A stretch of DNA of 40,990 nucleotides, from NCBI GenBank assembly GCA_029560815.1, contig JAKQKF010000060.1, positions 1 through 40,990 on the forward strand, written 5' to 3'. The notes below the pieces were generated by a model. That model was not told where the DNA came from, did no database searches, and worked only from the letters and a program-made list of their open reading frames with translations. The translations under genes were made by a program, and so were the position numbers. This document shows positions 6,017 to 8,110 of this stretch, piece after piece (position 1 is the stretch's first letter; each line of letters begins with the position of its first letter). This DNA comes from a bacterium (GTDB lineage Bacteria > KSB1 > UBA2214).

Positions 6017-6045
6017 TTGACATTGGACCATTTTTCGGTTATATT
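6017..6045 (+). promoter_or_regulatory. sigma70-type promoter of the ilvBNC-leuAB-cimA operon
   Basis: A perfect TTGACA (6017-6022), a 17-base spacer and TATATT (6040-6045) lie 35 bases upstream of the leader ORF start at 6081. The predicted transcript would begin near 6052 and contain the leader ORF and the attenuator hairpins before ilvB. Confidence 0.8.
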
Positions 6046-6080
6046 AAAAAAATAGACCCTATTAACCCGTCAGGACCACC

Positions 6081-6242
6081 ATGCACCACGCGCATCACAT
6101 CGCTCTTTCCCGCTTTCATGACTCCGGTCATGACGGCCTGGGTGTGCTGCGCTCCCACCTCGCATTATCCACAGGCTCCCTGCGGGCGCTCGCTATTCTG
6201 CATCTCATTCTTATTAACCTCTTGCTTCTGATTATCTACTAA
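6081..6242 (+). CDS. BCAA attenuation leader peptide
   Basis: This 53-codon ORF (ATG at 6081, TAA at 6240-6242) has AGGA five bases upstream and lies directly behind a near-consensus promoter. Its C-terminal part reads LAILHLILINLLLLIIY. Residues 34-52 contain nine Leu and five Ile, the amino acids made by the downstream operon. The codons for Leu47-49 overlap the first arm of the attenuator hairpins, as expected for ribosome-mediated attenuation (compare the ilv and leu leader peptides of enterobacteria). The N-terminal half is unusual: it is His-rich (MHHAHH; eight His in total) and the peptide is longer than the usual 15-35 residues. It has no resemblance to a functional protein and probably acts only by being translated. 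Confidence 0.82.
   Translation: MHHAHHIALSRFHDSGHDGLGVLRSHLALSTGSLRALAILHLILINLLLLIIY
6116..6133 (+). other. perfect hairpin inside the leader ORF
   Basis: TCATGAC (6116-6122) and GTCATGA (6127-6133) form a 7-bp stem with a 4-base TCCG loop within the leader coding sequence. It could act as a transcriptional pause signal that synchronises ribosome and polymerase. That role is inference. Confidence 0.45.
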
Positions 6243-6346
6243 ATCAAGGCTGCAAGAGGAAAACCGCACTTTACTCCACCATTTTTCAATACCCCGTACC
6301 CATTGCGTATTCCCTCTGCAGCCGCAGGCTCATAACGGCTTGCCGC
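6218..6346 (+). promoter_or_regulatory. ribosome-mediated attenuator with alternative hairpins
   Basis: Four complementary segments are visible. Segment 1, CCTCTTGC (6218-6225), lies inside the Leu codons of the leader. Segment 2, GGCTGCAAGAGG (6248-6259), starts five bases after the leader stop. Segment 3 is CCTCTGCAGCC (6313-6323). Segment 4 is the 3' arm of the terminator (6336-6346). 1:2 pairs over 8 perfect bp. 2:3 pairs over 11 bp with one bulged A (antiterminator). 3:4 forms the terminator. The pairings are mutually exclusive. Ribosome stalling at scarce Leu/Ile-tRNA would mask segment 1 and allow 2:3, so transcription continues. A ribosome reaching the stop codon would cover segment 2 and allow termination. 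Segment complementarity is seen directly; the mechanism follows the known enteric model. Folding energies were not computed. Confidence 0.8.
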
Positions 6347-6354
6347 TTATTTTA
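6321..6354 (+). terminator. attenuator terminator upstream of ilvB
   Basis: GCCGCAGGC (6321-6329) pairs with GCTTGCCGC (6338-6346), giving seven Watson-Crick pairs, one G-U and one mismatch with an 8-base loop. TTATTTTA (6347-6354) follows immediately. An overlapping alternative stem, GCAGCCG with CGGCTTGC (6318-6324 with 6336-6343, one bulge), is also possible. The U-tract is interrupted, so termination is probably partial, as expected for an attenuator. Confidence 0.68.
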
Positions 6355-6391
6355 GTTGCCGGCGGCGGCCCCCAGCAGAAGGAATATCATC

Positions 6392-8110
6392 ATGACCGGC
6401 GCAGAGATGATCATCCACGCCTTGCAGCAGGAGGGTGTGCGCGCCCTCTTCGGATATCCGGGCGGCATGGTGATCGACATCTTTGATACACTCTATTCGG
6501 CGGGGATGCCCTTCTACCTCACCCGCCATGAGCAGGGGGCGGCGCATGCCGCCGACGGCTTCGCCCGCGCCACGGGCGAGGTCGGGGTCTGTGTGGCGAC
6601 TTCCGGCCCCGGCGCCACCAATCTGGTCACCGGACTGGCAACCGCCTATATGGACTCCATTCCGCTGGTGGCCATAACCGGCCAGGTCCCGACCAGCCTG
6701 ATCGGCAACGACGCCTTTCAGGAAGCGGATATGCTCGGCATCACCCGCTCGATCACCAAACACAATTTCCTCGTCAACGAGGTCGATGAGCTGCCCCGCC
6801 TGCTCAAATCGGCCTTTTATATCGCCCGCAGCGGCCGTCCAGGTCCCGTCCTCATCGACATCCCCAAGGATATCCAGCAAGCCGCAACCTCCGTTCCCTA
6901 TCCGGAAGAGGTGAGCATCCGCAGCTACAAGCCCACCATCGCCGGCCACCTGCCCCAGATCCAGAAAGCCGCCGCCCGCATCAACCGTGCCGAACGGCCC
7001 GTCATCTTCGCCGGCGGCGGAGTCATCTCCAGCGGCGCCGCCGGCGAACTGGCCTTTCTGGCCCGCCACATCCAGGCGCCGGTCACCACCTCCCTGATGG
7101 GACTGGGGGCCTTTCCCGAGACCGACCCCCTCGCTCTCAAGATGGTGGGCATGCATGGCTCCGCCTACGCCAACTATTCCATCCAGGAGGCCGACCTTCT
7201 CATCGCCATCGGCGTGCGCTTCGATGACCGCGTCACCGGCAAGGTGAGCAAGTTCGCCCCCCGGGCGGAGATCATCCACATCGACGTCGATCCCGCCACC
7301 ATCCGCAAGAATGTCAAGGTCTCCATCCCCCTGGTCGGTGACATCCGCTGTGTCCTCACCGAGCTCAATCAGCTGGTCGAGAGCAGAAGCCACGAATCCT
7401 GGCTGCAGGTGGTTGCGGGCTGGAAGAGGGATCATCCCCTGCAGTACACCCAGAATGGCGGCATCTCACCGCAGGCGGTGATTCGCACGATTGCGGAGAT
7501 GACCGGGCACCAGGCGATCATCGCCACGGAGGTGGGGCAGAACCAGATGTGGAGCGCCCAGTTCTACGATTTCATCGAACCTCGCACCTGGATCAGCTCG
7601 GGCGGCCTCGGCACCATGGGCTTCGGTTTCCCGGCGGCGATCGGGGCGCAGGTGGCCCATCCCGGCCGGCTGGTCATCGACATCGCCGGCGACGGCAGCA
7701 TCCAGATGAACATTCAGGAGCTGGCCACCGCCGCTCTCTACAACCTGCCGGTCAAGATCGTCATCCTCAATAACCGCTCACTCGGCATGGTTCGCCAATG
7801 GCAGTCCATTTTTTACAAGCGCCGCTTCTCCGGCGTCTGCCTCAACCGCGACGCCCGCTGCCCCGAACAGTGCGACGGCAGCAGCGATTCCTGTCCGATC
7901 TACCTGCCTGACTTTGTCAAGCTGGGTGCAGCCTATAACATCCCGGGTTTCCGCTCGGACCGGCCCGGGGAGGTGATGCCGATCCTGGAAAAAGCCTTCG
8001 CTCATGCAGGGCCCGCCATCGTCGAATTCATGATCAGTGAGGAGGAGAACGTCTTCCCGATGGTGCCGGCAGGAGCGGGATTGAACGAAATGCTGAGAGG
8101 AATGGCCTGA
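6392..8110 (+). CDS. ilvB: acetolactate synthase large subunit
   Basis: The large subunit of acetohydroxyacid synthase (572 residues) condenses pyruvate with pyruvate or 2-ketobutyrate using thiamine diphosphate, FAD and Mg. Domain order is the N-terminal ThDP pyrimidine domain with catalytic Glu47 in RHEQGAAHAADGFARATG, a central FAD/NAD-like domain, and the C-terminal pyrophosphate domain with GDGSIQMNIQELATA from residue 433 ending in ILNN. The ATG at 6392 has AAGGA upstream; a TTG at 6356 would run into the attenuator terminator. An uncommon feature is an insertion before PDFVKLGAAY with four cysteines (Cys483, 490, 494, 501; C-x6-C-x3-C-x6-C). It is first in the attenuated operon, and its stop overlaps the ilvN start by one base. 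Confidence 0.97.
   Translation: MTGAEMIIHALQQEGVRALFGYPGGMVIDIFDTLYSAGMPFYLTRHEQGAAHAADGFARATGEVGVCVATSGPGATNLVTGLATAYMDSIPLVAITGQVPTSLIGNDAFQEADMLGITRSITKHNFLVNEVDELPRLLKSAFYIARSGRPGPVLIDIPKDIQQAATSVPYPEEVSIRSYKPTIAGHLPQIQKAAARINRAERPVIFAGGGVISSGAAGELAFLARHIQAPVTTSLMGLGAFPETDPLALKMVGMHGSAYANYSIQEADLLIAIGVRFDDRVTGKVSKFAPRAEIIHIDVDPATIRKNVKVSIPLVGDIRCVLTELNQLVESRSHESWLQVVAGWKRDHPLQYTQNGGISPQAVIRTIAEMTGHQAIIATEVGQNQMWSAQFYDFIEPRTWISSGGLGTMGFGFPAAIGAQVAHPGRLVIDIAGDGSIQMNIQELATAALYNLPVKIVILNNRSLGMVRQWQSIFYKRRFSGVCLNRDARCPEQCDGSSDSCPIYLPDFVKLGAAYNIPGFRSDRPGEVMPILEKAFAHAGPAIVEFMISEEENVFPMVPAGAGLNEMLRGMA

Follow-up and report, generated by a model that had tools for sequence, protein, structure and literature searches.

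A leucine- and isoleucine-rich leader peptide and predicted RNA switch ahead of ilvBNC-leuAB-cimA in candidate division KSB1, with a proposed Rho-dependent output

The ilvB leader region and its surroundings

We analysed a stretch of bacterial DNA (the window, meaning the whole 40,990 nucleotides) that groups with candidate division KSB1, in which a leader region precedes a run of genes identified with NCBIfam as ilvB, ilvN, ilvC, leuA, leuB and cimA. On the opposite strand NCBIfam identifies a 6-phosphogluconolactonase-like gene (score below the curated cut-off), ilvD, leuC and leuD; these occupy 5858-750 (-) and follow a divergent promoter-like site at 5940-5912 (-). Only about 50 nt separate that site from the first minus-strand gene, and thus there is no room for a comparable leader on that side. 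In the genome collection, the nearest relatives of the window's IlvB are L002 (92%) and the KSB1 MAGs L001 (84%), L003 (72%) and L004 (71%). IlvB matches occur in 61 of the 82 genomes of the phylum of G001, and many of these matches are remote members of its enzyme superfamily. The genomes compared are MAGs, many fragmentary, and phylum membership is as given by the collection.

The leader region and the first gene behind it comprise the following features:

6017..6045, + strand: sigma-70-type promoter, TTGACA-17-TATATT, with 11 of 12 consensus bases
6072..6075, + strand: AGGA, by its sequence the likely Shine-Dalgarno site of the leader ORF
6081..6242, + strand: leader ORF, 53 codons and a stop, Leu/Ile-rich in its C-terminal part, with counterparts in 17/17 usable clade loci
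6218..6225, + strand: segment 1, CCTCTTGC, over Leu codons 47-49
6248..6259, + strand: segment 2, GGCTGCAAGAGG, alternative partner of segments 1 and 3
6260..6311, + strand: spacer poor in G and rich in C (52 nt with 4 G and 18 C), which makes up the 2:3 hairpin loop; proposed Rho-binding stretch
6312..6323, + strand: segment 3, CCCTCTGCAGCC, partner of segment 2
6320..6355, + strand: terminator-like hairpin (6320-6347) and T-rich tract TATTTTAG, unconserved and absent in the nearest relative
6325..6328, + strand: CAGG bordering segment 3 on its 3' side, recurring in relatives
6379..6383, + strand: AAGGA, by its sequence the likely ilvB Shine-Dalgarno site
6392..8110, + strand: ilvB, first gene of the putatively controlled ilvBNC-leuAB-cimA run

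A sequence-only reading of this DNA had described a complete classical attenuator here, and much of its account of the leader held up. The near-consensus promoter is in place (24 of its 29 bases are identical in L002), as are the leader ORF with its own Shine-Dalgarno site and the run of nine Leu and five Ile in 19 codons, found at codons 34-52. The 53-residue peptide has the C-terminus NLLLLIIY ahead of a stop codon at 6240-6242 and carries, by reading, at least 13 Leu/Ile/Val in its last 20 codons, the window standing outside the shuffle-control set described below. Such leader ORFs are short and easily missed in annotation. The geometry proposed for ribosome control is also present, with segment 1 on the codons of Leu47-49 and segment 2 starting 5 bases past the leader stop.

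Pairing between segments 2 and 3 (2:3) in the window was equalled by 1 of 200 shuffles, and predicted equilibrium pairing probabilities are 0.975 for 2:3 and 0.012 for 1:2, the latter a pairing that could count only during RNA synthesis. That the pairings are mutually exclusive is correct for 1:2 and 2:3, which share segment 2, but only partly so for 2:3 and 3:4, because formation of 2:3 costs the 3:4 hairpin just three foot pairs (6320-6322 with 6345-6347), and the inner pair 6324-6343 keeps a probability of 0.99 with or without 2:3. In the folding for competing structures that was suggested with the original claim, the foot pair 6320-6347 switches from a probability of 0.86 with segment 2 masked to 0.0 with 2:3.

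Recurrence of the sensor half in KSB1

We took as usable those loci with ilvB first and upstream sequence at hand in the clade nearest the window. All 17 have a leader ORF with 9 to 15 Leu/Ile/Val in its last 20 residues, and all 17 have CCTCTTGC or a near variant in the last codons together with a complementary stretch past the stop. Counting the window, segment 1 is present in 18/18 loci in a constant frame that encodes Leu-Leu, and it lies exactly 14 nt ahead of the stop in 13 of these 18; the segment 2 motif is present in 17 (the deviant is L101). At L090 both arms are changed, CCTTTTGC pairing with GCAAAAGG. Comparison of the window with L002, its 92% relative, shows 62/63 identical positions in the last 20 leader codons and stop and 22/22 in the next 22 bases, 23/37 in the spacer, 15/22 in segment 3 and its flanks, and 21/31 in the proposed terminator.

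At L100 and L103, ilvB lies behind ilvD and is without such a leader, which sits before ilvD; these ilvD-first loci are represented via L144 and L145. L152, cut by a contig end, and L098, which had no upstream sequence, fall outside the counts. The arrangement recurs deeper in the phylum: all 17 ilvD starts examined, sampled from part of the KSB1 phylum only, have an upstream ORF with 9 to 16 Leu/Ile/Val in its last 20 residues. In 14 of these 17 ilvD-first leaders, segments 2 and 3 are unlike those of the ilvB group in sequence, and their pairing beats at least 198 of 200 shuffles. As each ilvD leader was the ORF that scored highest on Leu/Ile/Val number and inverted repeat combined, the 2:3 pairing is the more independent evidence in this group. 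The second ilvD copies of G040, G003 and G005 (L147, L148 and L149) have BCAA-rich upstream ORFs, with 2:3 pairing not above chance and weak or no signal in the hairpin scan described below. The set of 32 ilv leaders used from here on includes the window and excludes these three second copies.

Shuffling and permutation controls point the same way. An ORF whose last 20 codons include 11 or more Leu/Ile/Val was found in 13/16 real ilvB-first regions (a set of which the window is not a member), compared with 0.6% of 1600 shuffled upstream regions. In 28/32 leaders no more than 10 of 200 shuffles equalled the 2:3 pairing; L090, L095, L097 and L101 failed. When partners were permuted 10000 times, the native mean for 1:2 was reached 3 times in the ilvB group and 0 times in the ilvD group, and that for 2:3 once and 0 times, respectively; as the loci are related, these pairing statistics are approximate. 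Additionally, 1:2 becomes weaker in 30/32 cases when the leader is recoded with random synonymous codons (mean z -1.9); L133 and L142 show the opposite.

In other phyla, 3 of 75 further ilvB loci (L006-L080), some of which are without a start or full upstream sequence, have an ORF whose last 20 codons hold 11 or more Leu/Ile/Val. Upstream of ilvB in L035 and L052 (Fibrobacterota) lie two BCAA-rich small ORFs ending ETGL, perhaps a different kind of leader.

Alignment of homologous regions, the test proposed for the original claim, thus found the Leu/Ile run, 1:2 and 2:3 kept at every usable ilvB-first locus, and the leader with 2:3 at most ilvD starts; for 3:4 the same test went against the claim. 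On this comparative evidence, we consider it very probable that the sensor half, comprising the leader, its regulatory codons and the 1:2/2:3 switch, is real.

Terminator hairpins and other candidate outputs

The window's hairpin has a predicted energy of -12.9 kcal/mol, and 5 of the 8 bases behind it are T (p 0.03 in a comparison with 60 shuffles); its U tract is weak and broken. Our scan sought single hairpins with 5 or more pairs and, in the 8 bases behind them, 5 or more T, and reached at most 180 nt past the stop, so that L094, L138, L144 and L146 were covered in part. Only 4/32 KSB1 ilv leaders have a hairpin of at least 8 kcal/mol with a U-run (the window 12.9, L144 12.4, L090 9.9 and L094 8.5), and 6/32 reach p <=0.05 against shuffles. 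The E. coli leaders thrL, leuL, ilvL, hisL, trpL, pheL and ivbL have a hairpin and U-run in 7/7 cases, each of at least 13.4 kcal/mol. A conserved 3:4 fold without a U-run was dismissed, as segment 3 and its tail fold like shuffled sequence across the 32 leaders (mean z 0.02; 3/32 below -1.5). Pairing of segment 3 with its own next 40 nt is slightly better than with permuted partners among the ilvD leaders (p 0.04), and among the ilvB leaders it is no better (p 0.30). The possibility that 2:3 is itself the terminator was dismissed by eye, there being no U-run after arm 3. In L138, a long inverted repeat, built of GTGAGTGGT-like units and perhaps a repeat element, lies between leader and ilvD.

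Leaders of the trp and his operons in KSB1 present a different picture. Twenty of 30 trpE loci (L160-L189) have a Trp-rich ORF, and 18 of these were tested, L174 and L176 being omitted for their scattered Trp. A strong hairpin with a U-run was found in 16/18 (16/20 overall); the two failures were L179 (far upstream) and L182, for which the wrong ORF was taken and whose WWW ORF has a 19.3 kcal/mol hairpin. Among 30 hisG loci (L190-L219), 14 His-run ORFs were seen, 10 of them with a hairpin of at least 11.5 kcal/mol and a U-run; in L190 and L195 the ORF precedes the gene upstream of hisG, a gene that resembles hisZ. The Trp-run and His-run leader ORFs at these loci are unannotated. Fourteen genomes have both an ilv leader and a trp or his leader; all 14 carry the hairpin at the trp/his leader and 2 carry it at the ilv leader, the trp/his entries being those found with a leader. 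The window's nearest relatives show the same difference, with a his hairpin of 16.9 kcal/mol and no ilv hairpin in G002, and hairpins of 20.4 (his) and 4.6 (ilv) in G001.

It is in this output half that the description as a complete classical attenuator is not supported: the 3:4 terminator is not conserved, and the trp and his leaders of the same genomes have strong terminators. A classical intrinsic attenuator would have segments 3 and 4 terminate transcription at 6320-6355, with 2:3 weakening the hairpin by taking the foot pairs beside the U tract, and the window itself fits this design in its hairpin energy, the T content behind it and the loss of the foot pair once 2:3 forms. We nevertheless find this explanation rather unlikely, as the hairpin is missing even in the 92% relative L002, 28/32 ilv leaders are without a hairpin of at least 8 kcal/mol and a U-run, the inner hairpin survives 2:3, and the U tract is broken.

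A further candidate signal lies at the edge of segment 3. CAGG occurs in 16/32 ilv tails against 2.0 expected from mononucleotide shuffles, and a Gibbs motif at this edge scores 6.67 bits, above the 5.0-5.7 of 6 shuffled sets. Both would suit a leader and switch that are real and act through some other factor, through pausing of RNA polymerase or through RNA decay, with CAGG perhaps as the signal. This seems improbable to us, given that the control sets are small, motif positions vary and several loci are without a match near segment 3. Rfam, whose leader and riboswitch families include T-box, Leu leader and the ilvB motifs, returned 0 matches at gathering score in the window and in 20 KSB1 loci. 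At E up to 5 there was one 15.3-bit match, which we took as chance.

Translational control, whereby segment 3 (CCUCU) would mask the ilvB Shine-Dalgarno site unless held by 2:3, has its best case in the window, whose segment 3 favours its own ilvB site above that of every other locus (rank 0, z -3.6), and in L101, L102 and L140, which rank 0 to 2. Over the 32 loci, however, native pairing is not above permuted (p 0.13), and predicted accessibility of the start region is the same in both states (mean +0.04, Wilcoxon p 0.14; window 0.36 in both). On these two results we rejected this pairing as a general mechanism, and translational control is a highly doubtful explanation. Coincidence of ORF and pairings can be set aside almost entirely, as nothing beyond the general weakness of short motifs speaks for it, and phylum-wide conservation and arms changing together speak against it.

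A proposed Rho-dependent OFF state and its relation to known leaders

The window may possibly combine three outputs, namely the -12.9 kcal/mol hairpin, the C-rich spacer and segment 3-SD pairing. We give most weight to the spacer, because its composition is common to relatives and the hairpin and SD pairing are absent from most. The 2:3 loops are 19-78 nt long (median 40), and of their 1254 nt in total G makes up 5.6% and C 27.1%, compared with 25.7% G and 14.9% C in the stretch between segment 3 and the gene (at most 60 nt), and C exceeds G in 32/32 ilv 2:3 loops. Of the 32 loci, 16 have their strongest C-over-G 50-mer, sought over the surrounding 0.8-1.5 kb, centred between stop and segment 3, with 2.2 expected; the window's lies 167 nt ahead of the stop, outside the spacer. 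Within 130 nt of the stop, 22/32 ilv leaders have a 40-mer containing 8 or more C and no more than 2 G, against 0/16 trp leaders, which are without the C-over-G bias; in a control, 8/32 of 200-nt pieces further upstream, both strands considered, contain such a 40-mer. The seven E. coli leaders have no 40-mer with fewer than 4 G. A regular-C pattern modelled on that of a Rho predictor occurs in just 11/32 ilv leaders.

Rho is near-universal, and thus its gene, encoded in 10/10 related genomes tested, says little by its presence. Seven of the ten (G001, G003, G004, G005, G009, G044 and G045) carry an additional Rho-like gene that is shorter than the one for full Rho; in G009 this shorter gene has two internal stops. 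Rho prefers C-rich, weakly structured RNA (PMC6386406). Taken with the C-rich, G-poor loop and the presence of Rho in all ten genomes, this preference makes Rho, as a proposal, the best-supported output that can be named. Alternatively, low G may serve only to keep the 2:3 loop unfolded.

Our preferred reading is a ribosome-mediated BCAA attenuator whose OFF state acts through Rho. It builds on features supported by sequence comparison: the leader, its regulatory codons, 1:2 and 2:3, their geometry, the missing conserved terminator and the G-poor loop. Leader translation and stalling, the direction of control and the role of Rho are what we infer from them, and for sensor and output together we hold the chances to be about even. 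With Leu (and Ile/Val) tRNAs charged, the ribosome would reach the leader stop and cover segment 2, or segment 1 would hold segment 2. With segment 2 so occupied, 2:3 would be absent and the G-poor, C-rich stretch and segment 3 would be left open, and transcription would stop before or early in ilvB, most likely via Rho loading on the open stretch; the OFF state is probably Rho-dependent, and in the window species the hairpin 6320-6347 may contribute to termination. When Leu is short, the ribosome would stall at the Leu codons of segment 1, releasing segment 2, so that 2:3 could form, close the C-rich stretch in a hairpin loop and allow RNA polymerase to read through.

A wider and more tentative suggestion, to which we give somewhat less than even credence, is a phylum-wide class of attenuators, in which a starvation-induced antiterminator hairpin locks a Rho-binding stretch in its loop for ilv, and trp and his use intrinsic terminators. 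Our data point towards attenuation by the translating ribosome at the ilv, trp and his operons of a candidate phylum. Additionally, leaders with and without intrinsic terminators form a natural contrast within single genomes, and thus provide a testable question: can a 1:2/2:3 leader switch be wired to Rho in place of a terminator hairpin?

Our literature search, in sources that include only a minority of subscription journals, found no paper on KSB1 leader peptides or amino-acid attenuation and, among titles and abstract openings, no BCAA leader described as acting through Rho. A paper on M. tuberculosis reportedly deals with Rho and uORFs, and the tna leader is a uORF-controlled, Rho-dependent one. 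Attenuation outside Proteobacteria, put forward by the sequence-only reading as an extension, is supported for BCAA leader peptides by comparison within KSB1, but the idea itself was already known. Such control has been shown or predicted in enterics, Corynebacterium, Mycobacterium, Streptomyces, Staphylococcus, Lactococcus and Streptococcus (PMC1262725, PMC10272879, PMC13236596 and PMC5794164). What is new here is KSB1 as host group and the missing terminator.

Among known systems, E. coli ilvL, ivbL, leuL, trpL, hisL, thrL and pheL share with the KSB1 ilv leaders a leader rich in the controlled amino acids, a stop near segment 2 and alternative 1:2/2:3 pairing; all seven differ in having a strong hairpin and U-run, whereas KSB1 ilv leaders mostly have none and have a long G-poor 2:3 loop. 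Actinobacterial ilvB leaders, as described for the Corynebacterium ilvB-II motif (PMC10272879) and Mycobacterium ilvB1 (PMC13236596) and in PMC1262725, share a BCAA-rich ORF before ilvB and proposed control by translation speed, but have a Rho-independent terminator; the window and the 20 KSB1 loci scanned match no Rfam family at gathering score. The Staphylococcus aureus ilv-leu leader likewise has Ile and Leu codons, and the KSB1 leader stands before ilvD in part of the phylum; in S. aureus, however, the terminator is conserved across staphylococci and the antiterminator is another one (PMC5794164).

Related to the proposed KSB1 output are Salmonella speF/orf34 (PMC6386406) and E. coli toiL-topAI (PMC12121999), in which a short ORF governs Rho-dependent premature termination, and tna, which is named in PMC1262725. 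None of the three is known to combine BCAA-synthesis genes, a 1:2/2:3 switch and a C-rich stretch in the antiterminator loop, and in KSB1 the part of Rho is a proposed one. Mycobacterial cys leaders share a leader peptide with regulatory codons, the lack of a terminator and a suggested role for Rho (PMC1262725). They differ in that neither a conserved hairpin nor a conserved polypyrimidine motif was found there, whereas in KSB1 the 2:3 pairing and its G-poor loop recur.
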